A DNA stretch of 64,000 nucleotides from NCBI RefSeq assembly GCF_026151205.1, contig NC_087076.1:9398902-9462901 (forward strand), written 5' to 3'. Position numbers and translations under genes: made by a program. The notes below the pieces were generated by a model. The model ran no database searches and had not been told where the DNA came from. It saw only the letters and a list, made by a program, of their open reading frames with translations. Source of the DNA: Bolinopsis microptera (lineage: Eukaryota; Ctenophora; Tentaculata; Lobata; Bolinopsidae). Shown in pieces: positions 11,211-44,370 of the stretch (positions within the stretch are counted from its first letter, which is position 1; every line of letters starts with the position of its first letter).

Positions 11211-11217
11211 CGGGAAG

Positions 11218-12153: not shown

Positions 12154-12159
12154 GTTGCC

Positions 12160-12700: not shown

Positions 12701-13110
12701 GTCAAATGTATTGCCCCTGGAAATGTGTGGAAAATATCTCAAAATATGATAGGACTAACTGTGCAGTCCCAGCTCGGAACAGGAGGAAATTGAGTCGGAA
12801 TACTTTTCTACCAGCATCAGAACTACCAAGGTCAATAATAATGTTTTTAATAAAGTTCATCCCAAAAGGCTTCCAGAAAGCAAATCACGTGACCAAACAC
12901 CCACGTGGCACAGTCATATCCCGCTTTGAGAATATGGGAACCTGAAATAACTAATCGAATTACACCCAGTTGTTGGTCAGGGTCTCAAAAACGTGATAAA
13001 TCCATGATCTCATTAAATAGCCTTTAATGCAGTTAGCAGAAAAGCCATCACCCGAGTGCATATTAACTTTTAATCACTGACGATGAAGGGCGGAACTTAA
13101 CCTAGGTCAT

Positions 13111-13954
13111 GTGCCCATGGGGGTGATTCGGAATCAGATGATGATTAATCACTCTACACTCGACTGTCACGTGCCTTCTTCAACCCGTTCTCTAGCTGGC
13201 CCTGAACGACTATTCAATTTCAAAACCCTAACCCTCTCATCAGAATCTGATCTCAACCCTAACCCTAACCCAATCCTTAGCAAAAGCATAATATGCTGAA
13301 ACCCTAACCCTAACGAGAAATTAGATTAACTTCCTTATACGGTCATATCACGTGATCGAGACAGTTTTTCGCCAATATCTCGCCAGGGGAGCATTTTAAC
13401 CTTATTTCATGGGGGTTGATTCGGAATCAACGTCCGAAAATACATCGATTCAAGTTGGTTTCAACTGTCGGGGGCTTTTTTAGAACAATCTCGAAGATCG
13501 ACTGTAGAGTGATTTAGCACGCTCGGACGATGAAGGGCGGAACTTAATCATGTGGTCTTCTTCAGGTAATCTAGGCATTGTAATTGTCTCAAAATCCATG
13601 GTTCAAAGAGTACAGATAATGGTTTCCGTGGCGGGTAACCTCGTTAAGGTTTTATAGGTGCTATATGTAGTTTCACAATTTATTTATCTAGAGGGCAATT
13701 TATTTATTTGGTGTGCAGTTTGTCGTAGTTCCTCTTTTCAGAATAGAAGAACATTCGAGTTAACGCAATCGAGAGATCCTGTTTTGACTTTTGTAATACT
13801 CTGTAGACGCTCATTATTCTCAGCAGACATGAGTTTTCATATTTGCCGAAACAAACGGCAGACGAAATTTTGCGAACTGTTCATTTTAGAGACCGTCATT
13901 TGGCGTTATCAGAGTATTTGTGATTTATACCAACAGCGAGTTTTAAAGTTTTAA
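13111..13954. other. Non-coding outer palindrome region with conserved chance ORFs
   Basis: Two short frames (13111-13299, 13658-13954) are repeated in the right arm only because the DNA is duplicated there. No domain, splice structure or coding bias is visible. Confidence 0.5.
13220..13312. repeat. Degenerate interstitial telomeric repeats
   Basis: Scattered CCCTAA hexamers in three small clusters, interrupted by CTCATCAGAATCTGATCTC and a short AT-rich stretch. Mirrored at about 43618-43715. This context differs from the telomere-repeat MITEs. Confidence 0.6.
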
Positions 13955-14279
13955 GCTTTTCGCCCTGATATAAATGATAAAGTGATTTGTCAGCTGTTCA
14001 TTATACTATTTTGAAATATAATTGAACTACAATTTTAAGCATCAACTGCATTGCTTGAAAATGTATTTACTGTTAAACTCCTCTTTATAAAATTAAAACG
14101 TACATAAATTACAAAGGTTCTCATTATCTAAGAAACTAAATTATACAGAAGTTTACTGTATTACCTTATTGGACGTAATTTGACCAGGTAATATGTGAAC
14201 GGACATAATTTTGAACAGACATCTAGACATTAAAATGAACGCTCGAAAGCATTCATGATCAGTATATAATTTAACTACC

Positions 14280-14330
14280 TTATCGGACCTTTTTTTTAAA
14301 CGGACATTAAAGTGAACGATAGGGCAGTGG
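14280..14330. mobile_element. Half of an ACCTTATCGGAC MITE (left arm)
   Basis: ACCTTATCGGAC, a T-run, then AAACGGACATTAAAGTGAACG and ATAGGGC form one end of the element that is complete at 42549-42650. Here homology stops at ATAGGGC and a GCC/GGC-rich stretch (14330-14410) follows. Confidence 0.5.
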
Positions 14331-14579
14331 TGTGCGCCGCCGTGTTCTACCAAAATCGGCGGCGGCGTGGCCAAAATTAGCGGCGGCGGCGTTCGGCGGC
14401 GATGCCTGTGGACAATTGGCAGTTTCAGTTGTGACTCGACAAAATGGAAATTCATTGCTTAGGTAAACTAAGTCAATCCTTTACCGTAAAGGATTGACTT
14501 AGAGTTAGTATTAATAAGGTTTAGAATGTTGCAAATTTCACTTCAATTCATCGTTGACATAAACATTTTATTAAACTAA

Positions 14580-15600
14580 CATGTGTATATAAAAGTTTGA
14601 ATGTATAGAATATCTTATTATTGTGTTACTGTATAGTTATCCACAGATCCTTACTCAATGAAGGACTGTGTCGCATCTTTACTTATGTGTCTCTCACCTT
14701 TCTTCCCATCGCATTGGTCAAACTTAACGCGTCCCCAACATTTTCAGTCTGTAATTCATTCTAGTTCAGTAAGGGTAACTGAAGTTTGTTGACCCCGCAT
14801 TTTCTGTAGCCGGCTTAAGGCTTCTCTGTAACAACTAAGAACAAATCTAAAATTGTAAAGGAATTTCCATCGTTTTACAATGTAAATTTGTTTTAGAAAA
14901 TGTTTCCTGGCGACACTCGTTTTGTCTGACATAATACGTACAATTTGTTTGTATTTGCGTGACGTAATATTTAAACATGACGTAAAAATGGACACATTGA
15001 GAAAATGAACGAGCATTCGGAATTTTTAAACCATTGTCTCCCTCTATTAATTACTTGGTATTACCTCCCTTTACTAAGTTTCATATGTCAAAACAAACGT
15101 ATAAGATAAACAATTGTGGATAACTAAGACCTCATCATTCGTAACACACGATCCGGTGTTGTCTATACACGTGGTATTCCGAGTGACGTAGTCTACGAGG
15201 TACTGTCACGTGGTATTGACCCGTGATAGTTCTTAGCATTTACGGGGCTGATTACACCCTGGAGTATCAGTGTTTTTAAAAAACTGCCTTCCCACTTTTA
15301 TACTTCCTTCTACGATTCAACCTGGAGCTAGACTGGCATTGATTCTTATGAATATACAGTACGTTTATAAACGGAGGTCACATGAACAACACAAGCATCC
15401 ATTGATATGTCTACGAAATCGCACTGATACCAAGATGTCTGCACGCTACCTGATCAGATGGAAGGCCTCTCATTGGACAATGAAACACTTTTGAAGGTGT
15501 GAAAATCAGTTTTTCGGAATTTCGTCTCTTAATTTTTGAAAACTCCAAATTTCACAAATTTTGGTCGCAACGGTAAGGTATCCACGTGATCTTGAGCCGT
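14580..15600. other. No recognisable feature
   Basis: AT-rich palindrome-arm sequence, mirrored at about 41350-42350, without credible exons. Confidence 0.5.
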
Positions 15601-15611
15601 TCTGTAAGTAA

Positions 15612-15676
15612 TTATAAAACTGCTGACTAAAAAAACTCGTGCCTTCGGCCACTCGTTAGCGTCAGCAGTTCTATAA
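15612..15676. repeat. Short hairpin element
   Basis: TATAAAACTGCTGAC and GTCAGCAGTTCTATA form near-perfect inverted ends around CTCGTGCCTTCGGC. Mirrored at about 41255-41320. Confidence 0.5.
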
Positions 15677-15734
15677 CTAACCTTATAGACATCGGAAATG
15701 CATGCTTTTCCTGTAGCTTAAAACTATCCCAATT

Positions 15735-16285
15735 TTCCATAACAAGTAACTAATCAACGAGTCACCAGAATTGTGTTTCTATTGATTGATTAAACTTTGT
15801 GTTTTTTTGACCTGGTAAAATTATACTATTTTTGTTTATAAGTTTATATGTTCCTTCAGTGTTACAGTGGTACGTTACTTCATATTGAGTTCATTCTTAG
15901 CTTTAGATTTAAGTCTTAATCAAGGGCCATCTACTTAGAGTTAGGACGTCGGCAAAATAGGGAGGGGGTGGTTTTGGAATTTCGGACAAATCTGGACTGG
16001 GAGGGGTGGTTTCTGCAAATCTGGACGTCCGTGAAATTTTGGCATAATTAACAAAACTGATCCCATTTATTTCAATCTTTGAATTTTATTTCAACTCTTT
16101 GAATTTTATTAACAATGAATTCGAGTTGATTTATTCTTACTCTTAAATTAAAAGGTAGCTTGAATCGGGACGTCCGGGAGGGAGGGGTGCACCTCTGTTT
16201 TGAAAATTGGACACACCCGGACAGGGTGAGGGGGTGGTCTGAAAATCTGCGATTTTGGCGGAGTCCAAGTAAATGGCACTAACGG
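15735..16285 (+). mobile_element. MITE-containing repeat with GGACGTCCG ends
   Basis: Near-identical to 63451-64000, and mirrored at about 40668-41220. The core (about 15921-16285) begins GGCCATCTACTTAG...GGACGTC and ends GGCGGA...CCAAGTAAATGGC, forming imperfect terminal inverted repeats. Inside are GGAGGGGGTGGTTTT blocks. Frames inside are not genes. Confidence 0.65.
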
Positions 16286-17514
16286 GTACACGCTACGTGT
16301 TTTAAATCCATACGATCAAACGATGTGCCAGCTTTCCGGCCTATATTTTATACATTTAGGTATATGATTTTTATCTGATAATTAACTTGGTGTTCGACCA
16401 CGTAAGGCACGAATTCTCTGGGGTAGAAACGAGGTTATAATATACTGAGTAATATATTATATTAAATCAGTAAAAAAGTCATCAAGAATGTTCTCGTTTA
16501 AAAAACCATGAGCAATGAATGGATCAGAACAAACCGTAAAATAAGTACGAACCCGGTTAAACTGCGTCAAAAGTGACGCACTTTCTGGTAAACTCGCTCA
16601 AGAGCAAATTGTTCCCATATTATTCCTCTATCTCTGTTAAATTTCATCTGTTGTCACTCAAAGCCCAGAGAATTAAAATATTAAATATCAGCTGCTAACA
16701 ATTTCTCCGCAGTAAAATGGAAGCTTATTGGTACCCTATTATGCATCTAATTTCGATTTTCTTTATAGCGAAATGTTGGCCTTGTATCTGCTTGTTTTGT
16801 TGATCTGGCGGCTTGTGGGTTTAAAATGAAATGGTTATGAACCTGACATATTCCTGCTCTTCGATTTGTAACATTTACTTATTTTACGATTATAATAACA
16901 GGTCTCCAACTCCAAGCGCTGAGAAGTACTGGTACCTATCATCACATGGTACGCGTCGGACGTCAAGAGGATCCCGTGACTTCAAGAGGAGCTATATGTG
17001 GTGGAATTGTTGTGATGTTCTTATTACCGTTTCTGTTTGGGCTAGCTCCAAGCAAAGCAGCGAACTAAAAAAAACGCAGTAGATATACGGAATATTGCAA
17101 GTTGTTTCGGAGGGGGTGTTTTCTCGTAACTGCTTAATGCACTTGATACCTGAGGTCATAGTAAGAGTAATGAGGGTTTGGAATTTCCTTTTCAGATCAA
17201 TGATTTACGTACATCAGCAACTATTGGACAACTGGGCAGCTTGGTACTATATAAATCAACCCATTAACAAAATAATTTCACATATATAATATGCCACTAT
17301 ACGTAAAAAATCGAGCCTAAAAAGAGGTCCCTTTCCAGGTAGCCAATAGAGATTTACAATAATGGCGGGACACCAGCGACAAACAAGTTTCTGAAATCTC
17401 TACCTATAGCAAGATATTGGATGTTTTGGTTTTGTAGCCATACTTCTGGTGGAGAGCATTGATCAAGGGATGCATCTACAGTGCAGCCTGCTCCGGAGGT
17501 AAACACTGTCAGAG

Positions 17515-17670
17515 TACAGCTATTAGTTCCTAAATCAGTTATAGTCACTAAGTTACTACATTAGTTACCTAGTCAATTAGTTACTAAATCAGTTTATAGT
17601 CACTTAGTTAACTAAATTAGTTATAGTCAATAAAGTTACAACATTAGTTATAGTCACTTAGTTACTAATT
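17515..17670 (+). repeat. 26-bp minisatellite, part 1
   Basis: Degenerate tandem units close to TTAGTTACTAAATCAGTTAT plus AGTCAC. The array is interrupted by a MITE and resumes at 18183. Mirrored at about 39267-39425. Confidence 0.75.
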
Positions 17671-18182
17671 ACCTTACAAGACATATTTCTGCGGCCTAAT
17701 TGCGACGACCGAAATTTGGCGGTCCCGAAAATATGGCGAAATTGAACAAAAAAACGTCAAATTCTCGGACCGTAACAGAAAATAAGGGGATTTTTCATCA
17801 ATTTTTGTGACAGTAAGCAGTAAGGAAATTCTGAACTTCGGTATAAATCATGTTCAAACGTTGTCTGTATTAAGACTGTAACGACTTTTCATGTTATCAC
17901 ATACATGTGATTTTAGTGCAAATTTAAACTGTATTGCTTGGACATTCAATTCGTCATTGGTGTGGTGATAATTCGTCCCAAGATGCCAGAATTTATTTAT
18001 TTCTTTACTTGATATTACCTTTTTAGAAACAAAATAAAGCAGTGAAGGCACAGTCATTGAATAGCTAAAAAGATAATGCGACGGATTCTATTACCGACGA
18101 CTGAATTTTGGCGGTCGAAAAAAATATGGCGGAAAATTTTCGGAAAACCGCCCATTTCGTACGTTTAAATATTCTTGTAAGG
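17671..18182. mobile_element. CCTTACAAGA MITE inside the minisatellite
   Basis: About 510 bp with terminal inverted repeats ACCTTACAAGACATATTT and AAATATTCTTGTAAGGT, each followed inward by blocks containing CCGAAATTTTGGCGGTC. It splits a 26-bp tandem array, so it inserted after the array formed. Mirrored at about 38771-39266. No transposase. Confidence 0.7.
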
Positions 18183-18560
18183 TCGTTATAGTCACTTAGT
18201 TACTAAATTAATTATTAGTCACTTAGTTACTTATCAGTTATAGGCACCTTAGCTTACTCAAATTCATTTATATTTTTTTTTTTTTTTTTTGAATTTTTTT
18301 TTTTGTCAATTAAATACTAAAATTAGTTATATCACTTAGTGTACTAAATAAGTTATAGTCAACTTAGTAACTAAATTAGTTATAGTCACTTAGTTATAAA
18401 TGATTTTAGTCACTTAGTACTAAATCAGTTATAGTCACTTAGTTACTACTCATTTATAGGGCACTTAGTTACTAAATCATTTATAGTAACGCCTCCCATT
18501 AATTACTAAAATCAGTTACTAGTACTTGTTACTATATCAGTTCAACTTATTTACTAAATT
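18183..18560 (+). repeat. 26-bp minisatellite, part 2
   Basis: Continuation of the TTAGTTACTAAATCAGTTAT-type array, with a T-rich interruption near 18270-18305. Mirrored at about 38440-38770. Confidence 0.75.
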
Positions 18561-20929
18561 GCGCAATGCCCCAAGTGGCCGACTTAAGGTCTTGTGATAT
18601 AAGAAAATTTCATATTCGACTAAATAGCCTGCACTGGGTGGTCAAATCCATCGCACCAGATAAAAGGGGCTACAGATAATAACTCTGGACGTTTCTTATT
18701 TGAAACTGCTAATATTTAATCCATACCCAGAGGATCGTATCAATATCCATTAACATTATACACCATTTAAGTCAAACTGTCAGCTAATTTGAAATTTCCT
18801 CGTTCTTCAGAACAGACTCTGGAGAGTTAGAAGAAGTATCACCAAAAGCAAATGGTCAGTCCCATTCACATGGCAAACTTGATCGTATGTAATTGTATGA
18901 TAAGACTGATGATTCAAATTGTCATCCGTACGCCCCCACCCACTTCCTCTAGAGCACACATATTGGGTCCACTCCTATAGTGTCTGTGTAACCACTAACA
19001 CGCTAGAGGAGAACCTGTTTTATTTTACACAATTATCGTATACCTTTTTATACTTTTCAGATACTGCTGAAGCAAATGTAGAATTAGAAACAGCCTAAAT
19101 TAGCGTTGAAAGAAACGTTGGAGCAGCCTCAAAGGATACCGTGCAGTTCAATTATTCGAGAACAATTGTAACTTTTGGACCACACCATTTTACAATTTTG
19201 TCTTGTTTGAACCTCTCAAACATGCGCTAGATTCAGAGTCATAGACTACTCGCTAATCTTTTTTGAATGACAAGCGTATTTTTTCAGAAGCAAAAAGTAG
19301 GAGACTCGATATTTGCTTTAGCGGTGCATTCTGTGTTGAAGGACTTGAATTGGTGTGGAATCCAAGACTTCTGTCTTCCTTCAACTTGCTGGAGCAATAC
19401 TTAATACCAAATGCGTGTGTGGCGTTTGCTGTGGGACCAAAGCTGTTAGATGCTGGCTTGAAGTTGAAGTGAGTTTTACACAAAAAAGTGTCATTGAAAT
19501 CCCTTTAATCAAAAATTGATTTTATGAGTTGTAAAATTATGAATGAAAATATTACAAAGGTTGTGTTATTTAATATCTCTGGTCGATGATATATCAATGC
19601 GACTCGGCCACTACACAATACGAAGGTGGATGGATTCTATCCTAATCGAATTTTGATCAAAAAATACTCAGCATCTTTACTGACACCAGATATTTCTCAG
19701 GGGGATATTGATAAGCTTGTCTATTATTTTGTGTAGCTCGACCCTATAGGCATTGCTCGTGCCATTGGAATGTTGAGCTTCTTGCTGTGACCTCGGTTCC
19801 CGGACTACTATTTCTCTTGTGTCCAGGTTCGTTGATATGTTGGTTTGTTGATATTTGATCTGGTTGATATGCTGATATGTTGGTATGTTGGTCTGTTGGA
19901 TGCTTGGATATGTTGATGTTCGGTTTGTGATACTTGATAATGTTCATATGTTGGTTTTGTATGCTTTCAGGAAATGGTGTCACATCATGATAAGTTGATA
20001 TGTACGAATTTATAATTCGCGTTGTTTCATTGCTAGGACTGTAATGGTGACCTGTTATGGCAACGTGAACGATTACGTTTGGTACAGGTTAAAATTGGGC
20101 CGCTAGTTTGGGTCACTGCAATATTAGCATTAAACAGTATTTTTGATTCAAATCTTTTTGGATTAAATTGACCATGAATTATAAGAATTTATCCGCTACA
20201 GGTTTGATAAGGGTCTGAGGTACAGGTTTCTTCTTTATATCACAATTTGTTGAGGATGATCTGCGATGAGATCAGGGATGAGCCAAGATATGATGCGAAA
20301 GGTACGCTCCTCAAACACCTTTCAAGCACCTATCGCACATTTAACTTGTCGTAATTTTTCACGATCTTAACAAAGCAGGATGTTTTTCGTAACGAAATAG
20401 AAATTTACAACGAGTTTATTCAAAATCTATTTGACACTGTTTTTATCGCTCGGTTTGCTGATAATTGGTATTCTCAACCCGTGGTACACAACTACAGTGA
20501 TCACTCGCACTTGCCTGATGAACCTTTTACAGTTCCTACCTCTTCTCTTCCTTTCCTCACACCTGTCCTATCTGTCATTATCCTACACTATAACACTCTT
20601 ACACTACACTACCTCACATTCAAGGTGCACTTTACTCTCAACTGCTGCCTCTTTCACACCTCTGGCCATTAATACCTAGCTCTAATGGGCTGATCTACCT
20701 AGAAAGCACAGCCTTAAGAGTGTTAAATCGGACCAGAAGTGGACCACCAGAGCGTAACGATATTTCACCCTCTTATCTCTCATTAGACTTTGTCACTGAA
20801 ATACCCAATCTTGTTGTGAAACGACTCCTGCGATTTTATTAATTGTGAATTTTATCGGAGGGTACACTTCAATGATACTATAACTAGAGGTTTCGATGCA
20901 AAATTAGAGAGTTTTTCCAATTTACAAAT

Positions 20930-21130
20930 TTCAGTAAAAACCCCGATTGACCCGCAGCCATTCCCTTTCCACAAATAGGGCTTACAACAACATAGTGTAT
21001 TTGAAACAATCGAAAACCGATTTAACGCTAAACTCGACATACCGCAAATCCATTTACCGCAAACCCGATTTACCGCGCGGCCCTTTTCCTTTCCTCAAAC
21101 TCCACCGATAAATTGAGGATTACTGTATCG
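20930..21130. mobile_element. Possible MITE with AAACCCCGATTTACCGC motifs
   Basis: Several copies of CGATTTACCGCAAA-like motifs between CAGTAAAACCCCGATT and GGATTACTGTA. Mirrored at about 35790-36000. Inverted ends are short and imperfect. Confidence 0.4.
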
Positions 21131-22260
21131 AAAATATGCTTTCAAACTTGATCTGCGTATAGAGATTTTATTTATGGTTAATTAAATCATCCAAGCACTC
21201 GTGCTACTTTTAATTTTTATCGTTACATTATTATTAAGTTTAGCTTTAGTTGCAGAATATTATTGCAAACTGATTTTTGAGTTTTATAGTAATAACCTCA
21301 AATAAACTTAGTATAAATGGTATTAATTTAATGTGCTTAAACGTATAGATAGCAAATCTCTGGTGAGGAGTATGAGCTGAGGCAAATGTTGTGACACGTG
21401 CATTAATGATAAATCATTCAGCTTTCAAATTGACTAATAAACCCAGAATCACGGACTGGACACGTGTCAAAAAAAGTATGCTTCACCTCCCAACCTAGAA
21501 AACCACAAAAAATGGACTGGTAGTTTTTTACTTTAATGGGTTTCAATTGATTTGTATGATGGTGCTGACTGGTAGAATTCCTTGCGCAATTTCGAAATGT
21601 AATCGACAAATGTCATATTTGGAAATGTCGACCTTATCATTCCTTGTTTTACTTTAAAAGTTTAATATTCGTTAAATAGTACTTAGCTAGAGCAAATAGT
21701 GATATATTTGAGATTGCAGAAGTGGAGGGTGCCGTTCTCGGGGTGTATTTTAGCACGAGAACGTGACCCGAAGTGAGGGCTGACCCAAAAGCCGGATGTC
21801 ATTAATTATCCTTGAGTTAAGCGAGTTGTTCAATAAATTGTTTTTTGTACACCTTGTATGTCGAGTAAAGTTTTCTGTTGTCCCACATAATGTTACTTGC
21901 ATGAAATTGCTCTTACCCACCACTTAAAGCCCACTGCAATACTTTCATTTTGCCATAACTTAATCTTATATTTAACATAACTTATCAGAATGTACGAGCC
22001 CTTCTATTGAAAATCTTAGTGGAACACAGCAAGAAAGTTGAGGCCAATTCTTGTGCGAGGGTAGGGACCAAGATATCGTTTCTAACCCAATTATCTTTAA
22101 TGCTTCTCATCAGTAGCCACACTCTTACTCGGTTTCTGAACTGGATTCTGTTGGCTATCAGCTGCAGGACCGAGTCATTACCATTTCATCCATCTAGAAT
22201 AGTTCATTCATTATAATTTAAGCAGAAATGTTATAAATATGAAGTATACAAGTATACACA
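21130..22260. other. No recognisable gene
   Basis: AT-rich sequence mirrored at about 34620-35790. The 140-codon frame seen on the right side (34931-35353) is not open here. Confidence 0.5.
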
Positions 22261-22262
22261 GT

Positions 22263-22481
22263 GGGTCCGGGACTCTAGGGCCGTAAGAACTCTAGGCGTG
22301 AGACTTTAGGGCGGCGCCCTAACCCTAAACTCATCACCCTAACCTAACCCTACACCCTTATCCTAACCTAACCCTAACCCTAACCGAACCCAAACCCTAA
22401 CCTAACCCTAACCCTAACCCTAACCCTAAGACCCTAGGTCTCACGCCCTTAGAGTCTTACGCCCTAGAGTTCCGGACCCCG
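22263..22481. mobile_element. Telomere-repeat MITE, two-ended copy (left arm)
   Basis: Terminal inverted repeats of about 40 bp: GGGTCCGGGACTCTAGGGC near 22264, and GCCCTAGAGTTCCGGACCCC ending at 22481. Between them are GTGAGACT modules, a CGGCGCCCTAA turn, and about 18 CCCTAA-type hexamers. Same family as 3316-3495. Confidence 0.8.
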
Positions 22482-22519
22482 TAATGTACATACGTATGTG
22501 ATATGACTATTATAAATAA

Positions 22520-23465
22520 CAATAGGTACTGAATAGTGAACTATCTGAATAGAGAACCCCTGAATGGAGAAACTTCTGATAGTGAACTACTGAATAGAGA
22601 AACTACTGAATAGTGGAACTACTGAATAGAGAACTTTTGAATAGTGAACTACTGACTAGAGAACTACTGATAGTGAAACTATTGAATAGTGAACTACTGA
22701 ATAGGAACTACTGAATAGAGAAACTACAGATAGGAGAATTATGCAATAGTGAACTTACTGAATAGAGAACTACTGAAATAGTGAAAATACGACTTAGGGA
22801 AACTACTGATAGTTAACTACTGAAAAGAGAACTCTACCCTCGATCGTAGTGAACTACTGAATAGAGAACTACTGGAATAGTGAACCCGCTTCGACGAGTC
22901 GTCGACAGCTGACTAGTCCATATGTTGAGTGATGGTGCGCGATTGAGACTGAATAGTGACCCTTCCCCTGAATACGCAGAGCGTATCAGATTCATGAATA
23001 GTGAACTACTGAATAGTGAACTACTGAATAGTGAAAACTACTGAATAGGAACTAATGAATAGTGAAACTACTGATAGGAACTACTGAATCAGTGAACTAC
23101 TCTCCTTGAGAGAGAAGAGAGGACATATGAATAGTGAACTACTGATAGAGAACTACTGTATAGTGAACTACTGAATAGTGAACTACAGGCTAGTGAACTA
23201 CTGAATAGTGAACTACCGATTAGTGACTTACTTGAATAGTGAACTATGAATAGTGAATACTGTATAGTGAACTACTTGAATAGAGAAATAATGAATAGTG
23301 AATATTGAATAGTGAAACTATGAATAGTGAACTACTGAATAGAGAACTACTGAATAGTGAACTACTGAATAGTGAAAACTACTGAATAGTTGAATACTGA
23401 ATAGTGAAACTACTGACTAGAGATCTATTGAATTAGTGAAATACTGAATAGTGAAACTAATGGTT
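22520..23465 (+). repeat. 15-bp minisatellite (left arm)
   Basis: About 60 degenerate units of GAATAGTGAACTACT, with GAGAACTACT variants and two short unrelated interruptions (near 22890-22960 and 23101-23125). Mirrored at 33450-34350 with a different unit pattern. Confidence 0.9.
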
Positions 23466-23469
23466 AGCT

Positions 23470-24360
23470 AATCATTTTGTTTATCGAGATTCACGCAATG
23501 CTGCTATCTCTTATTAGTGCTGATAAGTAAAAACAGTGAAAGGGTTAAAGAATGTTAGTTGTATTTTAATGCATGCATTGTACAATGCAAGTGGCAGATG
23601 TCATTTGTTCAAATAACTATCAGGTATTTGAGCAAACTGTAATTCAGCACTTTAATTTTAAAGATATAACTCAATTATTAAAACTTTTTTTAAATGTCGA
23701 GCTGCGTACCTGCCAAGTTTTCAACGGTTTTCATAAAAATTGTAGGCGAAATTCCCTGAATGAAGTATGACGAACTTCCATCTTCTCGTGATTTACATTT
23801 TACTGTTCCAATCATTTTTGTTTCTTTTGTATAATTGGAATCCGAATACTTATTTTTCATTAAGTTTTTCTTCGGTGGAAATTTTTACAATTTTATTGCC
23901 TACACGACCAACAATTCTTACAGTTTCTTTTTAAATCTAATCATTTGTTTTTACCAAAGATATCAATATATTGTATAACATGACAATAAATATTTCATAT
24001 AAACAAGAAGGATTTTAAACAAAATCACAAGGACTACCATAGAGCATGATAAACCTTTTTAAAACGGATAAAAATAAATTTTAAACCATTTCGGCATGTT
24101 TCTAGTTCTCTTATCTCTCTCAGCCTAAGGAAAAATTATCCATAAATTTAAATAACTCAAGTCATTAGCTAGCTTACTGACACCCCACCTATACCTTTAA
24201 GTCCCGTTAATCCAGTTTAACGGTATAAGCGTAGACTCTCATCCCATAATGCGTCTGCTATGTCACCAGACTGACCTCTCTGCGTTGTCTTCCCTCAATC
24301 CTACACCGCGCCCCCCTCGAGAGAGATCTAGTAGCTGTATTTTCATATAAGGGTACGGTG
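23470..24360. other. No recognisable gene
   Basis: AT-rich, mirrored at about 32600-33440. Ends in GAGAGAGATCTAG-type sequence near the 3' end of a candidate minus-strand gene. Confidence 0.5.
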
Positions 24361-24961: not shown

Positions 24962-25225
24962 TCCAGGTAGCCATCAGCTTCTTTCCAAGAGTAGTTGTCT
25001 TCCTCAATCGTCTGGTACGATGTTTCGAGTGCTGCCGGCCCCACAAGATTTGAGAAGTGCGACAGTCAGCAACCCTAGGACGCGTAGATCTTGGCATAGC
25101 TACAAATATGAAGGTAAAAATGAGTAAGGTTCAAAACATTTGAGGAATGTATCACTCAAAGTACGTGGAAAGTGGAATATTAGGTTTCATTTCCAAATTT
25201 AAATGATCGATACATTAAAATTGGA

Positions 25226-26472: not shown

Positions 26473-26479
26473 CGGCCCG

Positions 26480-31360: not shown

Positions 31361-31361
31361 A

Positions 31362-31632: not shown

Positions 31633-31919
31633 ATTTCCATTTTAATGGATCGATAGTTAAATTTGAATGAACACATAATCTTCAACTTTCACGTACATTG
31701 AGTGATACATTCCTGATAAAATTGTGTGCGATAACCTTCTCATTATACCTTCATATCTCTTGCAGCTTGCCAAGAGTCTTACGCAGTCTAGGGTTGGCTG
31801 ACTGTCCGCACTTCTCAAAATCTTGGTGGGCCGGGGCACACTCGAATACATTCGTACCAGCGATTGAGGAAGACAATCTACTCTTGGAAAGTAGCTGAGG
31901 CTACCAGGAATGCCAGGAA

Positions 31920-32550: not shown

Positions 32551-33449
32551 ACACCGTACCCTTATATGAAAATTGACAGCTGGATTCACGCGACCTGGAT
32601 ATGGAAGACACACGGCGGCCCCCCAAGAGAGGTCTTCTGGTTGACAACGCAGATTGTTTAATCTTACTTTAAACTTTAATTAACGGGGACTTAACTGAGT
32701 GGTTCATAACTCAAATGACTTGAGTTTAATTAAATTATGGATAATTTTCTTTTAGGCTGAGAGAGATAAGAGAACTCGAACAAGGCGAAATGGTGTTTAA
32801 AATTAATTTTTTAATCCGTTTTAAAAATGGGTATCCTGCATATGGTTAGTCTTGTGATTTTAAAATCCATATTGTTTTTAAATGAAATATTTTATTGTCA
32901 TGTTATACAATATATTGAATTTCTTTGTAAAAAACAAAATGATTAGGATTTAAAAGAAACTCGGTAAGATTTGTTGTTCGTGGTAGCCAATAAAATTGTA
33001 AAAATTTACCAACCTGAATAATAGAGATCTATAATGAACATAAATTTATCGTACCAATTATACAAAAATAAACAAAAATGGATTGGACAAGTATAAAAAT
33101 GTAAATCATGAGTAGATTGATTTTCGTCAACTTCATTCAAGAATTTCTCCTAACAGATTTTTATGAAAACTATTGAAACTTGGCAGTATCGCAGCTCGAC
33201 ATTTAAAAAAAAGTTTATAAAATTGAGTTATATGCCTTTAAAAATTAAAGTGCTGAAAATTACAGTTTGCTCAAAATTACCTGATCGGTTATTGACAACA
33301 TGACACTCTGGTCACCTTGGCAAATGCAGTGCACACAAGCGCATGCATTTAAAAATACAACTAACATACTTTAACCTTTCACTGTTTTACTTATCATGCA
33401 CTAATAATATATCAGCATTGCTTGAATCGCGATAAACAATTGGATTTAG

Positions 33450-34350
33450 CTAACCAGTAGTTCTCTATTCAGTAGTTCACTATTCAGATAGGATCTCTAT
33501 TCAGTAGAGGACCCTTATTCAGTAGTCCTTGTACTCATTCAGTAGTTCCAATATTCAGTAGTTCCCTATTCAGTAGTTCTCTATTCAGTAGTATTCACTT
33601 ATTCTGTGTTCACTATTCAGTAGTTCACTATTCAGTAGTTCTCTATTCAGTAGTTCACTATTCAGTAGTTCACTTATTCAGTAGTTCACGATTCAGTAAG
33701 TCTTATTCGGTAGTTCACTATTCAGTAGTTCACTATCAGTAGTTCCACTATTCAGTAGTTTCCACGATTCAGTAGTTCTCTTCAGTAGTTCACTATTCAG
33801 TAGTTCACTATTCAGTAGTTCCACTATTCAGTTGTTCTCTATTTAGTAGTTCACTATTCAGTAGTTCACTATTCAGTAGTCACAATTCAGTAGTTCACAA
33901 TTCAGTAGTTCACTATTCAGTAGTTCACCTCATTCTGGGTAGAGTTCACTATTCAGTAGTTCACCTATTCGTAGTTTTCACTATTCAGTAGTTCACTATT
34001 CCACGTAGTTCTCTATTCAGTAGTTCACTATTCCAGTAGTTCTCTATCAGTAGTTCAACTATTCAGTAGTTCTATTCAGAGTACACTATTCGTCAGATCT
34101 CTATTACAGTAGGTTCACTATTCAGAATTCTCATATCTAGTTAGATCTCTATTTCAGTAGTTCACTATTCAGTAGTTCACTATTCAATAGTTCACTATTC
34201 AGAAGTTCTCTATTCAGTTAGTTCACTCTTCAGAAGTTCTCTATTCGTAGTTCCACTATTCAGTAGTTCTCTATTCAGTATTAGTTCACCTATTAAGAAG
34301 TTCTCCATTCAGTAGTTCTATATTCAGTAGTTCACTATTCGTACCTATTG
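33450..34350 (-). repeat. 15-bp minisatellite (right arm)
   Basis: AGTAGTTCACTATTC units, the complement of the left-arm array. The interruptions near 22890 and 23101 have no clear counterpart here. Confidence 0.9.
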
Positions 34351-34390
34351 TTATTATAAATTAGTCATATCACATATGTATGTACATAAC

Positions 34391-34605
34391 GGGGTCCGGA
34401 CTCTAGGGCGTAAGGACTCTAGGGCGTGAGACTCTAGGCTCTTAGGGTTAGGGTTTAGGGTTAGGGTTAGGCGTTAGGGTTTGGGTTTCGGGTTAGGGTT
34501 AGGGTTAGGGTTAGGATAAGGGTTAGGTTAGGGGTTAGGGTGATGGTTAGGGTTAGGGCGCCGCCCTAAGTCTCACGCTAGAGTCTTACGCCTAGAGTCC
34601 CGACC
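34391..34605. mobile_element. Telomere-repeat MITE, two-ended copy (right arm)
   Basis: Mirror of 22263-22481: GGGGTCCGGACTCTAGGGCG at the left end, TTAGGG-type hexamers in the middle, a GGCGCCGCCCTAA turn, and the inverted end GAGTCCCGACCC. Confidence 0.8.
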
Positions 34606-36439
34606 CTAGGTGCTCCACTTCTTCTACTTGTATTCAATATATTTATAAACATTTCTGCTTAATTTATAATGATGAATCTATCTAGAAGGATTGAAATGGT
34701 AATACTCGGTATGGCAGCTGGAAGCCAACAGAATTCCAGTTCAGAAACCGAGTAAGAGGTGTGGCTATGATGATAAGCATTAAAGATATTTGGGTTAGAA
34801 ACGATATCTTGGTCCTACCCTCGCACAAGATTTGTCTCCTACTTTTCTTGCTGTGTTCCCCTAATGATTTTCAATAGAAGGGCTCCGTACATTCTGATAA
34901 GTTATGTAAAATAAGATTAAGTATGGCTAAATGAAAGTCTTGCAGTTGGTCTTAGGTGACGTGGGTATTAGATGCATTTCATGCAATGTACATATGTGGG
35001 ACAACAGGAAACTTTACTCGACATACAATGTACAAAAAGACAATTTATTGAACACTCGCTTTACTCAAATAATTGTCATCCGGCCTTTGGGTCAGCCGTC
35101 AATTCGGGTCACGTTCTCTTTGCTAAAATACCACCCGAGACGGCACATCCACTTCTGCAATCCCAAATATATCACCTTTTTAGCTCTAGCTAAATTACTA
35201 ATTAACCGGAATATTAAAACTTTTAAAGTAAAACAAGGAATTTTAAGGTCGACATTTTCAATATATGAACATTGTCGATTAATCCTGTCGAAGAAATTGG
35301 CAAGGAATTCAGACCAGTCAGCACAATCTTACAATTCAATGAATCCATTTTAAAAGTAAAAACGACCTACAGTCATTTTTAGTGGTTTCTGGTTGGGAGT
35401 GAAGCATACCTTTTTTTTGACACGTGACAGTGAGATTCTGGGTTTATTAGGGTCCAATATTGAAAGCTGATTGATTTATCAATATGTCACGTGGCAAAAC
35501 ATATGCCTCAGCTCAAATCCTCACCAGAATTTGCATCTCTTCGTTTAAGCCCCATTTAAATTATACAGTTATAACTAAGTTTATTTGAGGTAATTACTTA
35601 ATAAATTCCGAAAATCAGTTCAATAAATATTTCTGCCACTAAAGCTAATCTAAATAATAATGTACGATTAAAATAAAAGTATCACGAGTGCAAGGAGGGA
35701 ATTAATAAACAATAAATAAATCTCTCTACGCAGACTCTCACAAGAATTTGCGATGAAGTATATTCTCCTCTCCTATTTCGCTCCGATTACAGTAATACCT
35801 GCTACAATGCGTGTCTGTGTGCACAGGTGACCGAGACAAGGATAAGGCCGCGCGGTAAATCGGGGTTAGCGGTAAATCGCGATTTGCGTAAGTCGGAGTT
35901 TGCGGTTACATCGGTTTTCGATGTTTACAAATACATATGTGTAGTTAAGCCCTATTTGGTGGAAAGGATGGCTGCGGTAAATCGGGGTTTTACTGTAATT
36001 TGTAATGAGAAAAAACTCCTCTAATTTTGATCGAAAACCAGTTATTAGTATCATTGAAAGTGTACCCCTCAGATAAATTTTCGCAATTAAATTAAATCGC
36101 AGGAGTCGTTTCACCTCAGATTGGGTTATTTTCAAGACAAAAGTCTAATGAGGTTTAAGAGGGTAGAATGAAATATCGTTATCTGCTCTGGTGGTCCTAC
36201 TTCTGGTCCGATTTAAACAACTTCTAAGTTCTGGTGCTTTCTAGGTAGAATCCGCATTAGAGGTAGGTATTAATGGCCAGAGGTGGGTGAAGAGGCAGCA
36301 GGTTGAGAGTCAAGAGCACCTTGATGGTGAGGTAGTGTAGAGTACGAGTGTTATAGTGTAGATAATGTCAGATAGGACGTGGTAGTGAGGGAAGGATGAG
36401 ATGAGGTAGGAACTGTAGAAAGGTTCAATCAGCCAGTGC

Positions 36440-39400
36440 GAGACTTGACAGACTACCTGTCTAGGAGATGCGCGCTACTACGGTTGCAGATCTTACACTC
36501 AGCCGCACCTCGCTCGACAAAACCGCAGCCCCACCCCCCAGATAAAATACACCGCGAGCTTCGAAACTTTAGATTAGTCGCAAAATAATCTCTACTCGTC
36601 TTGTTTTTACTTTCAAATTTCGTACGAAAAACATCCTGCTTTGTTATTAAAAATCGTGAAAAATTAAGACACGTAAAAGTGCGTAGGTGCTTGAGAAAGG
36701 TGGTTGAGGATCTTACCTTCAATGCATCATATCTTATGACCATCCTGATCTCATAGCAGAACATTCTCAACAAATGTTGTATAAAGGAAGGAAAACCTGT
36801 ACTCAGACCCTGTATCAAAACCTGTCAGCGGATATAAGATGTGTAGTAATTCATGTTCAATTTATCCAAAAGATTTGAATCAAAAATACTTGTTTAATTC
36901 TAATATTGCAGAGACCCAAACTACGGCCCATTTTAACTTTGTACCAAACACGTAATCGTTCAACGTTGCCAGTAACAGGTCACCATTACGAGTCTAATCA
37001 ATTGAAACAACGCGAATTATAAAATTCTTACATATTCAACTAACATGATGTGACACCATTCGAAAGCAAACAAACCACAACATATGAAACAAATCAAGTA
37101 TCAACATAACCAACAATCAAAACATATCAAGCATCAAACATACCAACATACCACATATCAACCTATCAACATATCCAGTATCAACAAACATAATATCAAC
37201 GAACCTGACACAAGAGAAATAGTTAGTCCGGGGACCCGAGGTCACAGCGAGCTCCAACAGTCAATGGCAAGAGCAATGCTATAGGGGTAGCTACACAAAA
37301 TATTAGACAGCTTATCATTATCCCCCTGAGAAATCATTGGTGTCAGTACAAGTTTGGATGATATTTTTGTGATCAAATTCATTAGGATAGATCCATCCAC
37401 CTTCGTTTGTGTAGTGGGGCGAGTCGCATTATGTTATCGACCAGGATATTAAATAACACAAACTGTAATATTTTCATTCATAATTTACACTCATTAAAAT
37501 CTTTTGTGATTAAGGGATTTCTATGTCAACCTTTTTGTGTAAAAACTCACTTTTCAACTTCAATCCAGCATCTAACAGCTGTGTTCCCACAGCAACGCCA
37601 CCACGCATTTGTGTGATTAGTATAGGCTCCAGCAAGTTGAAGGAAGACAGAAGTCTTGGATCCACACAATTGCAAGTCCTTCAAAACACAAGATGCACCG
37701 CTAAAGCAAATATCAGTAACTCCTACTTTTTGCTTCTGAAAAAACTTACGCTTTCATTTCAAAAAATTAGCGAAGTACGTCTATACTTCTGGAATCTAGC
37801 GCATGTTTGGAGAGTTCAAAACAAGACAAATTGTAAAATGGGTTGTGTCCTAAAAGTTACAAATGTTCTCATTAATTGAACTGCCACGGTACCTTGGGCT
37901 GCTCCAAACGTTTCTTTCAACGCTATTTAGGCTGTTCTAATTATACATTTGCTTCACGCAGTATCTGAAAAGTTAGAATAAGGTTAACTTAATTGTTAAA
38001 TAAAACAGGTTCTCCTCTAGCGTAGTTAGTGGTACACAGACCTATAGGAGTGGACCATATGTGTGCTCTAGAGGAGGGGGGGGGGGCGTTACGGATGCAA
38101 TTTGAAACATCAGGTCTTATCATTACAATTACATACGTCAAGTTTTGCCATGTGAATGGGACTGACCATTTGCTTTTGGTGATACTTCTTTACTCTTCCA
38201 GAGTCTTTCTGACAGACGAGAAATTCAAATTAGCTGACAGTTACTTATATGGTGTATAATGTAATGATTGATACGATCTCAGGGTATGGCATTAAATATT
38301 AGCAGTTTCAAATAAGTAACGTAGAGTTATTATCTGTCGCCTTTATCTGGCGATGGAGTTGACCACCCTGATGAGGCTATTAGTCGAATATGGACATTTT
38401 TTTATTTCACAAGACTTAAGTCGGAAACTTGGGGCATGGCGCAATTTAGTAATAAGTTGAACTGATTTAGTAACTAAGTAATATAACTGATTTAGTAATT
38501 AAGTGATATAACTGCTTTAGTAACTAAGTGGATATAAATGATTTAGTAACTAAGTGACTATAACCTGATTTAGTTACAAGTGACTATAAATATTTATGTA
38601 ACTAAGTGACTTTAACTAATTTAGTTACTAAGTGACTATACTAATTAGTAACTAAGTGACTATAACTATTTAGTAATTAAGTGACTATAAATGATTTAGT
38701 AAGAAGCTGACTTATAATGATTAAGTAACTAAGTGACTCTAATTAATTTAGTAACTAGTGGACTATAACTACCTTACAAGACATATTTATAACGTACGAA
38801 ATTGTGGCGGTTTCCGAACATTTCGCCATCATTTTCGGACCCCCAAAATTTCGGTCGTCGTAATAGAATCCGTCATTATCTAGTTAGCTTATTACAAAGA
38901 CTGTGCCTTCACTGCTTTATTTGTTTCTAAAATAGTAATATCAAGTAAATAAATAAATAAATTCTGGCATCTTGCGGACGAATATCACCACACAATGCCG
39001 AATTGAATGTCAAGCTATAAGTTTAATTTGCATTAAAATACATGTATGTGTACATGAAAGTTTACAGTCTTAATACAGTCTAAAGTTGAACTGATTTTAC
39101 CGAATTTCAGAAATACCTTAGCTTACTGTTCACAAAACAATGATTGAAAATACCCTTATTATCTGTGGACGTCCGATTTGACGGTTTTTGTTCAATTTCG
39201 CCATATTTCGGACCGCCCAAAATTTCGGTCGTCGCAAATTAGGCCGCCATAATTATGTATTGTAATTTAATTTATTAATAAGTGGGACTATAACTAATAG
39301 TAGTATCTTATTGACTGATAACTAAATTAGTAATAAGTGTCTATAACTGGATTCGTAACTAAGTGACTATAAATAATGTAGTAACTTAGAGAATATAAAA

Positions 39401-40160
39401 CTGAATTAGTAATAAGTAGCTGTAATCTGACAGTGTTACTCCGGAGCAGGTGCACTTTTTAGGAAGCATCCCAATGGCATGCTAATCAACCAGAAGTATG
39501 GCTACAAAACCAAACACATTCCAATATCTCTTGGGTATTGGTAGGGATTTTCAGGAAATTGTTGTCGCTAGGGATGTCCCGCCATCTGTTTATCTCTATT
39601 GCTACATGGAAAGGGAACTATTTTTAGCTCGAATTTTTAAAGTATGGTGGCATTATTATATATGGTGAAATTAATTTTGTAATGGTTGATTTTATATACC
39701 AGCTGAGCCAGTTGACAATGGTGCGATGTACGTATATCATTGATCATTGATAAAGGAAATCAAAACCCTCATTACCCTTACAATTACCTAGGTATCACGT
39801 GCATGAAGCAGGTTCCGAAGAAACACCCCCTCCGAAACAACTTGCAATATTGGTATCATCTAGCTGCGTATTTTTAGTTCGCTGCTTTGAGTGGAGCTAG
39901 CCAAACAGAAACGGTTAATAAGACATCACAACAATGCACCACATTATGCTCCCTCATTGAATCAATGATTCCTCAGTTGCGTCCGACCGTTACCATTGCT
40001 GATAGGTACCAGTACTCTCAGCCGCTTGGAGTTGGAGACCTTTTTATATCGTAAAATATGTAATGTTACAAAATCAAGAGCAGGATTAGGGTCAGGTTCA
40101 TTAAACATTTCATTATAAACCAACACGCCGGCCAGATCACAAACAAAGCAGATACAAGGC
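36440..40160 (-). pseudogene. Second ZIP transporter gene, right palindrome arm (mirror)
   Basis: Reverse-strand mirror of 16902-20679. Recognisable parts: the TM2/TM3 exon near 39800-40055, the next exon near 39465-39600, the His-loop exon near 38155-38215, the HSVFEGL/HKCVVAF exon near 37545-37745, TM6 near 37200-37320 and the TM7 exon near 36715-36835. Its indels differ from those of the left arm, and within exons the better reading frame alternates between arms. Confidence 0.65.
38440..39425 (-). repeat. Mirrored 26-bp minisatellite split by the MITE
   Basis: Right-arm counterpart of 17515-18560: array, MITE (about 38771-39266), array. Unit counts and indels differ between arms. Confidence 0.75.
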
Positions 40161-40667
40161 CAAACATTTCGATTAAAAGAAAATCGAAATCTAGATGCAT
40201 AATAGGGTACCAATAAGCATCGTTTTCTGCGAGAATTGTTATCAGCTGATATGTTAATATTTTAATTCTCCCTGGGCTTGCGTGACAAGATTTATTTTAA
40301 CAGAGATCAGATAAATTGGGAACAATTAGTCTGAGCGAGTTTTACCAGAAAGTGCTCACTTTTGACCAGTTTAAACTCGGGGTTCGTACTTATTTTACGG
40401 TTTGTTCTTGATCCATTCATTGGCTCATGGTTTTTTTTAAACGGAGAAAATTCTTGATGACTTTTTTTACTGATTTATATAAATTATATTAGATCAGTTA
40501 AATTATATTATAACCTTCGTTCTACCCAGAGATAATTCGTGCCCTTACGTGTCGGAACACCTAAGTTAATTATCAGATTAAAAATCATATACTAATGGTA
40601 AATTAAAAATATAGGCCGGAAAGCTGGTCCATCGTTGATCGTATTGGATTAAACACGTAGCGCGTGT

Positions 40668-41220
40668 ACGTTAGGGGCCATTTACTTTGGGACGTCCGCC
40701 AAAATCGCAGATTTTCGGACCACCCCCCTCTCCCTGTCGGGATGTGTCCGAATTTTCCAAAAACCCACCCCACTCTCCGGGACGTTCCGGATTTCAAGCT
40801 ACTTTTAAATTTAAGAGTACAATAACATCAACTCGAAATCATATTAATAAAATTCAAAGAGATGAAAATAAATTCAAAGAGTTGAAATCAATGGGACGTT
40901 TTGTTAATTATGCCAAATTCGGACGTCCAGATTTTCAGAAACCACCCCCTCCCCGCTCCAGATTTGTCCGTAATTCAAAACAACCCCTCCCTATTGCGCC
41001 GTCCTACTCTAAGTAGATGGCCCTTGATTAAGACTTAAATCAAGCTAATAATGACTCATTATGAAGTTACGTACACTGTAAGCTGTAGGAAATATACACT
41101 TATAAACAAAATAGTATAATTTACACAAGGTCAAAAAAACACCACGTTAATCATCAATAGAGAACACAATTCTGGTGACTCGTTGATTAGTTACTTGTTA
41201 TGGAAAATTGGGATAGTTTT
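40668..41220 (-). mobile_element. Mirror of the GGACGTCCG MITE repeat
   Basis: Right-arm copy of 15735-16285. The GGACGTCCGCCAAAATCGCA end at about 40681 is intact. Confidence 0.65.
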
Positions 41221-42548
41221 AAGCTACAGGAAAAGCATGATGTCGAGGTCTATAAGGTAAGTTATAGAATGCTGACCTAACGAGTGCCGAAGGCACGAGT
41301 TTTGTCAGCAGTTTTATATTTACTTACAGCAGGCTCAAGATCACGGTGATTCTTACCGTTTGCGACCAAAAAATTTGAAATTTGGAGTTAATTAAGAGAT
41401 CGAAAATACCGAAAAAAACTGATTTTTCACACTTCAAAATTGTTCATTGTCCAATGAGAGGCCTTCCATCTGACAGGGTAGCGTGCAGGACATCTTGGGT
41501 AATCACGTGGCGTTTTCTTACCATATCCATGGGATGCTTGGTGTTGTTCATGTGACCTCCGTTCTAAAGTACTGTATTTTCATAAGTATCAAGACAGGCG
41601 AGCTCCAGGTTGACGGGTTAGAAGGAAGTAAAAGTGGAAGGACGTTTTTAAAACATGATACACCAGGGTGTAATCAGCGCCCTAAATGGCTAACGACTAT
41701 CACGGGTATACCACGAGACAGTACTCGTGACTACGTCACTCGGATACCACGTGTATAGACACACCGGAGCCGTGCTGTAACGATGAATGAGTCTTAGTTT
41801 TCCACAATGGTTTATCTTATACGTTTGTTTTGACATATGAAACTTAGGAAAGGGAGGTAATACCAAGTAATTAATAGAGGGAGACAATGGTTTAAAAATT
41901 CCGAATGCTCGTTCATTTTCTCAATGTGTCCATTTTTACGTCATGTTTAAATATTACGTCACGCAAATTACAAACAAATTGTACGTATTATGTCAGACAA
42001 AACGAGTGTCGCCAGGAAACATTTTCTAAAACAAATTTACATTGTAAAACGATGGAAATTCCTTTACAATTTTAGATTTGTCTTAGTGTTAGAGAAGCCT
42101 TAAGCGGTACAGAGAATGCGGGTCAACAAACTTCAGGTTACCCTTACTGATAAGAATTAATTACAGACTGAAAATGTTGGGGACGCGTTAAGTTTGACAA
42201 TGCGAGGGAAGAAAGTAGAGACACATAAGTAAAGATGCGAAACAGTCCTTCATTGATTATAGGTTTCTGTGATAACTTATACAGTATACACAATATATAA
42301 GATATTCTATACAGTCAAACTTTTATATACCACATGTTAGTTTTATAACAATGTTTATGATAAAAGCATCTCCTGGCAGAATAAAAGACTGAACAAAGAA
42401 TAATAACAAAAGGTTCAGGCAGTTATGTTGACAATTTTAATATACGCGAGAGATACGAAACATATAGATAGTAGATACAGTTCATCTATTAACTACAAAC
42501 TAGCTTTTTGTTATCATTAGATATAACATTAGCATGAAGCATCCACCT

Positions 42549-42650
42549 TATCGGATTTCATTTGAACGGACATTAATTGGACGCTGCCACGCTGGAGGCC
42601 CTATCGTTCACTTAAATGTCCGTTTAAAAAAAGTCCCGTAAGGTAGTTAA
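42549..42650. mobile_element. Complete ACCTTATCGGA MITE (right arm)
   Basis: About 102 bp. ACCTTATCGGAT, then GAACGGACATTAA, mirrors TAAATGTCCG and CCGTAAGGTAG at the other end. A related element is at 57933-58013, and half of it is at 14280-14330. Confidence 0.6.
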
Positions 42651-44370
42651 GTATATATGATCATGAATGCTTTCGAGCGTTCATTTCTTAATGTCTAGAT
42701 GTCTGTTCAAAAATTAAGTCCGTTAATATACCCTGGTCAAATTTACGTCGATAAGGAATAATACAGCTACATAAAACTTCTGTATAATTTGTTTCTTAGA
42801 TAATGAGAAAAAAACCTTGTAATTTATGTACGTTTTAATTTTATAAAGAGAGTTTAAACCAGTAAATACATTTCAAGCAATGCAGTTTGATGCTTAAAAT
42901 TGTAGTTCAATTATATTTCAAAATAGTATAATGAACAGCTGACAAATCACTTTATCATTCATATCAGGGCGAAAAGCTTAAAACTTTAAAACTCGCTGTT
43001 GGTATAAATCACAAATACTCTGATAACGCCAAATGACGGTCTCTAAAATGAACAGTTCGCAAAATTTCGTCTGCCGTTTGTTTCGGCAAATATGAAAACT
43101 TATGTCTGCTGAGAATAATGAGCGTCTACAGAGTATTAAAAAAGTCAAAACAGGATCTCTCAATTGCGTTAACCCGAATGTTCTCCTATTTTGAAAAAGA
43201 GGAACTATGACAAACTGCACACCAAATAAATAAATTGCCCTCTAGATAAATAAATTGTGAAACTACATATAGCACCTATAAAACCTTAACGAGGTTACCC
43301 GCCACGGAAACCATTATCTGTACTCTTTGAACCATGGATTTTGAGACAATTACAATGCCTAGATTACCTGAAGAAGACCACATGATTAAGTTCCGCCCTT
43401 CATCGTCCGAGCGTGCTAAATCACTCTACAGTCGATCTTCGAGATTGTTCTAAAAAAGCCCCCGACAGTTGAAACCAACTTGAATCGATGTATTTTCGGA
43501 CGTTGATTCCGAATCAACCCCCATGAAATAAGGTTAAAATGCTCCCCTGGCGAGATATTGGCGAAAAACTGTCTCGATCACGTGATATGACCGTATAAGG
43601 AAGTTAATCTAATTTCTCGTTAGGGTTAGGGTTTCAGCATATTATGCTTTTGTTAAGGATTGGGTTAGGGTTAGGGTTGAGATCAGATTCTGATGAGAGG
43701 GTTAGGGTTTTGAAATTGAATAGTCGTTCAGGGCCAGCTAGAGAACGGGTTGAAGAAGGCACGTGACAGTCGAGTGTAGAGTGATTAATCATCATCTGAT
43801 TCCGAATCACCCCCATGGGCACATGACCTAGGTTAAGTTCCGCCCTTCATCGTCAGTGATTAAAAGTTAATATACACTCGGGTGATGGATTTTCTGCTAA
43901 CTGCATTAAAGGCTATTTAATGAGATCATGGATTTATCACGTTTTTGAGACCCTGACCGACAACTGGGTGTAATTCGATTAGTTATTTCAGGTTCCCATA
44001 TTCTCAAAGCGGGATATGACTGTGCCACGTGGGTGTTTGGTCACGTGATTTGCTTTCTGGAAGCCTTTTGGGATGAACTTTATTAAAAACATTATTATTG
44101 ACCTTGGTAGTTCTGATGCTGGTAGAAAAGTTTTCCGACTCAATTTCCTCCTGTTCCGAGCTGGGACTGCACAGTTAGTCCTATCATATTTTGAAATATT
44201 TTCCACACATTTCCAGGGACAATACATTTGACGAAGCGTGCCGAAAAAGATACGATCTACTGCTCCTCAAGCATCGAGATCCGACCCAGGGCTCGAGATC
44301 TGAACCATGGCAGGCCCTCCCAAAGCATCAGGAGTCACGAGATCTGAGTCAAGTAACCTGAGCCAAGTAT

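Follow-up and report, generated by a model that had tools for sequence, protein, structure and literature searches.

Features of the Locus

The DNA analyzed here, referred to as the window, is a 64,000-nucleotide stretch of the genome of the ctenophore Bolinopsis microptera (assembly GCF_026151205.1, contig NC_087076.1, positions 9398902-9462901, within a 264.65 Mb genome), and it contains a large inverted repeat at positions 12701-44232. The original prediction described this element as a near-perfect palindrome of ~31.5 kb with almost no loop and a center near 28376. In our self-BLAST comparisons, the inverted symmetry was recovered over this interval, and the mirrored order of its content held as well, with blocks similar to ZIP transporters, six tandem arrays, and a mobile-element copy all mirrored. 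However, the arms are 81-96.5% identical and thus not near-perfect. Identity is 80.9% in the inner arms (20504-36442; 1448 mismatches and 1004 gap openings), 84.6% between 14558-20398 and 42359-36617, and 96.5% in the outer part (12701-14325 versus 44232-42598). A chance origin of the symmetry is ruled out by the inner self-complementary alignment, which spans 16,818 columns with a score of 12,935 bits. We placed the turn near 28382, close to the predicted center, with a loop of ~25-30 nt. A tRNA scan found none. The features of the locus are given below, where C3 is a third copy of the arm sequence, MITE stands for miniature inverted-repeat transposable element, and indel for insertion or deletion.

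1-12700 (unstranded): left flank, P, with tandem ZIP-transporter-like paralogues at 130-2560 and 4750-7173 that are 95% alike (self-BLAST, Pfam)
12701-14060 (+): X_A, first 1.36 kb of arm 1 and clean terminus of what is presumed to be the left contig (comparison with X_B)
14061-14325 (+): continuation of X, a transition zone where indel differences from arm 2 begin and at least one arm appears raw (arm alignment)
14326-14557 (+): MITE-like repeat, presumably where the left contig ends (opposed by unrelated sequence of similar length in arm 2)
14558-28382 (+): arm 1, putative forward pass of a raw fold-back read (comparison with C3 and arm 2)
28368-28396 (unstranded): putative turn of the read, an apparent genomic loop of ~25-30 nt without adapter-like sequence
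28383-42359 (-): arm 2, putative return pass of the same read (comparison with C3; spectrum mirrors arm 1)
42360-42872 (-): transition zone, probably still raw read, boundary uncertain (arm alignment)
42873-44232 (-): X_B, in opposite orientation to X_A, clean terminus of what is presumed to be the middle contig (comparison with X_A)
44233-62121 (unstranded): Q, presumed middle contig with a clean reverse-transcriptase element, placement and orientation doubtful (allele search, RVT_1)
62122-63450 (+): probable second raw gap fill, a noisy array of 264-bp units (comparison with the copy on contig C4)
63450-64000, continuing to 75962 outside the window (+): start of C3, a clean copy of the arm content (sequence comparison, DNA pieces L006 and L007)

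A Clean Third Copy and the Error Pattern of the Arms

A genome search with the palindrome center returned, besides the palindrome itself, a place ~47 kb downstream. This clean copy, C3, occupies 63450-75962 in window coordinates and lies mostly past the end of the window. Arm 1 (15732-28396) matches C3 63450-75962 with 89.0% identity, and arm 2 (28397-41208) matches C3 75932-63450 on the other strand with 87.8% identity. The match to the arms stops at 75932-75962, and the chromosome sequence continues past C3. At the turn, arm 1 follows C3 to ~75965, and arm 2 resumes at ~75936 on the opposite strand; based on these alignments, from which its limits were read, the turn appears to be a genomic DNA loop of ~25-30 nt.

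We compared both arms with C3 over 12,513 C3 positions, using the stretches 15732-28366 (arm 1) and 28397-41208 (arm 2). Arm 1 differs from C3 by 321 substitutions (59 transitions and 262 transversions), 345 deletion events, and 379 insertion events in 12,040 aligned bases; arm 2 differs by 313 substitutions (49 transitions and 264 transversions), 347 deletion events, and 438 insertion events in 12,034 aligned bases. Each arm thus has a substitution rate of ~2.6%, along with 60-65 indel events per kb. The transition/transversion ratio (ts/tv) is 0.23 in arm 1 and 0.19 in arm 2, with 2.26 and 2.51 indel events per substitution, respectively. Most indel events have a size of 1 bp (628 of 724 in arm 1 and 636 of 785 in arm 2), and the longest error-free runs over C3 are 69 and 74 bp in the two arms, with none reaching 100 bp. 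Between the two arms, there are 596 substitutions, with a ts/tv of 0.19 and 2.05 indel events per substitution; a global alignment of the arms (1110 transitions and 1917 transversions) was set aside because the aligner settings force mismatches. The three copies form an additive star, in which the 321 and 313 substitutions to C3 compare with 596 from arm to arm, and the two identities to C3 with 81-85% between the arms.

The differences from C3 are mostly private to one arm. Among the 12,513 positions, substitutions are unique to arm 1 at 285 and to arm 2 at 272; both arms carry the same substitution at 27 and different ones at 3, and at another 20 a substitution in one arm faces a deletion in the other. 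Deleted positions number 389 for arm 1 alone, 426 for arm 2 alone, and 44 for both arms. With 557 one-arm substitutions versus 30 in both arms, the errors of the two passes are independent in the main, although not strictly so. The 27 alike substitutions, all of which are outside of the masked tandem arrays (10,265 positions kept), comprise 18 transitions and 9 transversions, whereas the ts/tv of all substitutions is 0.23 and 0.19 in the two arms. Given this composition, they may be read as single-nucleotide polymorphisms (SNPs) between the molecule of the read and the C3 haplotype.

The substitution spectra of the two arms agree (chi2 p=0.27, r=0.95) when read along the plus strand of the assembly, which is the reading direction, but not when both are placed on the C3 strand, where p=1.2e-10 and r=0.31. 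For example, the reading direction gives 63 A>C changes for arm 1 and 53 for arm 2, compared to 26 for arm 2 on the C3 strand. Similarly, deleted C residues number 119 in arm 1 and 150 in arm 2 in the reading direction, compared to 43 in arm 2 on the C3 strand. One instrument pass running through both arms would give spectra that match in the reading direction, whereas two mutated DNA copies would be expected to have spectra independent of it, unlike these arms. Overall, the arm differences from C3 are mostly private, one-directional, indel-rich, and transversion-rich, and C3 is clean.

These patterns bear on a biological explanation, namely, that C3 underwent a real and old inverted duplication and that the arms have since decayed to ~81% identity. 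The mirror order, which is intact over 31 kb, and the presence of three copies in the assembly are consistent with such an event. However, under decay C3 would not stand as the near-exact common ancestor of the arms, and a ts/tv of 0.2, 2.3-2.5 indels per substitution, and an arm-mirrored spectrum would be unexpected. Moreover, most of the repeat pairs tested in the same genome show another pattern. A genuine palindrome would have arm differences resembling mutations, and those found here are dominated by transversions and indels. We consider the decayed duplication extremely improbable.

Comparison With Other Repeats and Coding Blocks

The repeat pairs used as controls include the two ZIP paralogues (130-2560 versus 4750-7173; ts/tv 0.91, 0.40 indel events per substitution), a repeat pair at 3498/7626 (1.25 and 0.56), four transposable element pairs (0.62-1.00 and 0.08-0.27), four MITE pairs (1.0-3.0 and 0-0.22), and five comparisons of a reverse-transcriptase element (2.0-3.25 and 0.06-0.17). 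Among the six mirrored tandem arrays, five have 0% indels in C3 and 6-14% in the arms; for the sixth (L006 3471-3676), the values are 3-5% in C3 and 11-14% in the arms. The 15-bp array, for example, is 93% matched with 0% indels in C3, compared to 70% with 14% indels and 78% with 12% indels in the arms.

The noise is also found beyond the region covered by C3. The stretch 14558-15731 differs from arm 2 by 33 substitutions (2 transitions and 31 transversions) and 78 indel events. The mobile-element copy at ~15152-15687, which is likewise outside of C3, was compared with six family members that have 0-5 gap openings among themselves, and these comparisons gave 26-29 gap openings for arm 1 and 17-19 for arm 2; this gap-rich copy indicates that the raw stretch would extend past C3.

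Matches to ZIP-type transporters form blocks in the left flank and in C3. The only Pfam Zip match is on 2523-3023 (E 3.8e-07), and its 30.1 bits are under the curated cut-off of 35.1. Four presumed exons (653 bp), which are unannotated and were defined as BLAST blocks, each contain 6-9 indel positions in arm 1 and 9-14 in arm 2, and the translated matches are broken across frames. The left flank and C3 hold a tandem cluster of ZIP-transporter-like genes, with two near-identical copies in the left flank (130-9855) and a diverged one in C3 (64693-68018, beyond the window).

Ends and Flanks of the Arms

In contrast to the raw noise of the arms, the outermost segments X_A and X_B differ by 15 substitutions (12 transitions and 3 transversions) and 3 indel events, and in this respect they resemble two alleles. 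The joins between clean and raw sequence, at ~14558 and ~42873, are estimates from the arm alignment. At one mirrored spot, the arms carry unlike blocks, namely, the 232-bp MITE-like repeat at 14326-14557 and 238 bp of unrelated sequence at 42360-42597. Such blocks of similar length and unlike content would be expected from a gap filler if the contig end had a MITE and the read was unaligned there. Near 14840-15072, ~230 bp are identical between the arms except for one gap, amid noise; this may reflect patchy short-read polishing where no other copy draws reads off.

It is also conceivable that the arms are an artifact but that X_A and X_B, at 1.36 kb, form a real inverted pair flanking a gap, as their clean, allele-like differences (12 transitions and 3 transversions) and the two different flanks adjoining them would allow. 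However, no third copy of X outside of its MITE was found among the 40 candidates scored of 3,194, and a misoriented contig of the other haplotype would explain X_A and X_B without an inverted pair. A real pair therefore seems quite unlikely.

For the segment Q, to the right of X_B, no allelic copy of 44200-50500 was found among the 40 candidates scored of 2,303, and none of 52410-62100 among the 39 scored of 2,857 (the searches left out 50501-52409). That Q is the other haplotype of P was rejected, with no allelic copy among the candidates scored and a longest inverted P-Q match of just 252 bp. This match (10442-10693 and 51109-51360; 99.6% identity) is partly a dispersed repeat, and it might hint at linkage of the two flanks. 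Q may be misplaced, misoriented, or limited to one haplotype. A real haplotype difference could also underlie the artifact, with one haplotype in which P, X, and C3 follow directly and another with the ~18 kb Q beside X, possibly inverted, such that the fold-back read alone could bridge the resulting contig ends; we regard this scenario as rather unlikely.

The array of 264-bp units at 62122-63450, directly left of C3, is probably a second raw fill. Aligned over 1269 bases with its copy on contig C4, it differs by 89 substitutions and 76 indel events, and its rate of ~60 indel events per kb is as in the arms. Self-comparison of the C4 array at six shifts gives 49-94 mismatches and 0 gaps. The substitutions in the window array (70 per kb, ts/tv 0.65) are not raw-like. 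Taken together, this array is probably a mixture of true divergence and raw noise, although this is less certain than for the arms. If it is raw, Q would lie between two raw fills.

Several other features were observed in the flanks. The left flank contains an interstitial TTAGGG array (3364-3495, 22 copies), and a CCCTAA array is also present in C3 (L006 6040-6153). The left flank also has a 1-kb self-complementary stretch (11205-12166, 85%) over arrays of 11-bp units, which looks naturally hairpin-prone. In Q, the reverse-transcriptase element at 44853-46369 (RVT_1 E 3.4e-24) is 98-99% identical to most copies scored, and the family is probably recently active. Close to this element is a 42-bp minisatellite (46611-47110, 11.9 copies, 95% matches) with long open frames through both strands. 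Immediately right of C3 is a 20-bp satellite that forms a 5.5 kb array of ~277 copies (L007 4202-9666, corresponding by offset to window coordinates 78202-83666).

Origin of the Palindrome

From these comparisons, we conclude that the palindrome is almost certainly an assembly artifact, in which a raw fold-back read was used as a gap fill, and not a real genomic palindrome. The presumed read turns close to its midpoint, after which its sequence is the reverse complement of what came before, and both passes share one error spectrum in the reading direction. In the proposed course of events, a single long-read molecule would have run through the X side and C3 for ~14 kb, turned via the loop of ~25-30 nt, and run back. 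The molecule was most likely a PacBio continuous long read (CLR). Its raw sequence would then have been pasted as a gap fill between two scaffolded contigs, which carry X in opposite orientation: X_A at the right end of the left contig and X_B at the left end of the middle contig. Because both contig ends carry X and the read has X at both of its ends, the fold-back read would have looked like a bridge. The true locus would have one C3 per haplotype, represented by the clean copy at 63450-75962, and the middle contig is presumably misplaced or misoriented.

A nanopore origin of the read is disfavored, since transversions dominate (ts/tv ~0.2) and nanopore substitution errors are transition-rich. 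The reported pipeline for B. microptera includes wtdbg 2.4, HiRise, TGS-GapCloser, Purge Haplotigs, and Pilon, with 13 chromosome-scale scaffolds containing 97.23% of bases (PMC10232365). That account lists CLR and high-fidelity (HiFi) libraries across three species, among which Bolinopsis appears to be the CLR species, as the sponges were assembled with hifiasm. TGS-GapCloser is probably the step at fault, although this is less certain than the artifact itself. According to its method description (PMC7476103), among the read segments aligning to both contig ends the best one is pasted in, as appears to have occurred here; only the gap-filling bases are kept, and the scaffold order and orientation are taken as given, "ignoring possible assembly errors." The same description includes error correction of candidate reads, whereas the fill here looks uncorrected over the C3 part.

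The fold in the read could have arisen from a missed SMRTbell adapter instead of a native DNA hairpin. Missed or missing adapters are named as one source of palindromic PacBio reads in PMC6218980, which also gives palindromes in 0.5% of reads in an unamplified PacBio control. However, the sequence at the turn is genomic and continues into C3 to ~75965. No adapter-like sequence was found at the turn, where the score of 13 for the presumed adapter sequence compares with a background mean of 14.2 and is equaled or exceeded in 68 of 100 background windows. Given the lack of adapter-like sequence, a native hairpin end is likelier, and a missed adapter seems unlikely.

Similar artifacts have been described as fold-back or palindromic long reads (Breakinator, PMC12870357; Pacasus, PMC6218980), in which the second half is likewise the reverse complement and errors occur on both passes. 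Unlike in those reports, the read here persists in a finished chromosome, and its identity is inferred from the error spectrum. Genuine long palindromes generally keep clean arms. The palindromes P1-P8 of the human Y chromosome (as named in PMC6218980) share with this locus large inverted arms that carry genes and repeats, but the arms here lie next to a clean third copy and have small indels in every presumed exon tested, four in all.

Several observations weigh against this explanation. Outside of the arrays, coincident substitutions (30 observed versus 6.6 expected under independence) and coincident deletions (28 versus 10.8) are in excess, and 21 of the 27 alike substitutions are crowded into C3 73695-75886 (2.2 kb, beyond the window). 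The excess of coincident substitutions is taken to be due to the putative SNPs. Among the controls, the C3 array pair at 70252/70357 has a ts/tv of 0.39 and 0.52 indel events per substitution, such that ts/tv alone cannot separate every case; the control row of the 20-bp satellite (78033-82310) also deviated but is void, having slid into self-identity. Arm 1 errors are rarer in the presumed exons (0.072 versus 0.093 per bp elsewhere). In arm 2, the event density is 0.101 per bp in these exons versus 0.098 elsewhere, so the two arms do not point consistently to selection. Despite the reported Pilon polishing, the arms appear unpolished over C3, possibly because the clean C3 drew the short reads away. 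Candidate reads are normally corrected by TGS-GapCloser, although running without correction is also mentioned in its description (PMC7476103). Finally, fold-back reads are given as virtually nil in PacBio HiFi and Mas-Seq and 0.03% in Iso-Seq in PMC12870357, the text of which does not mention CLR.

Implications

The original prediction had offered two possibilities. The biological one, in which the palindrome would extrude cruciforms and could drive gene amplification or arm-to-arm gene conversion, is not supported, as ~14558-42359 behaves like noisy, largely independent readings of a clean sequence downstream. The other one, a fold-back assembly error that adds extra copies, is supported by the error spectrum and the clean third copy. 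If this is true, the published chromosome contains ~28 kb of raw read sequence beside a probably misplaced contig, with two broken extra copies of a ZIP-transporter-like gene and the enclosed repeats. Counts of genes, inverted repeats, and segmental duplications at this locus would then mislead. The combination used here, namely, a clean third copy, mostly private errors, and a spectrum that follows the reading direction, provides a read-free test that can be used on other large palindromes in older long-read assemblies.

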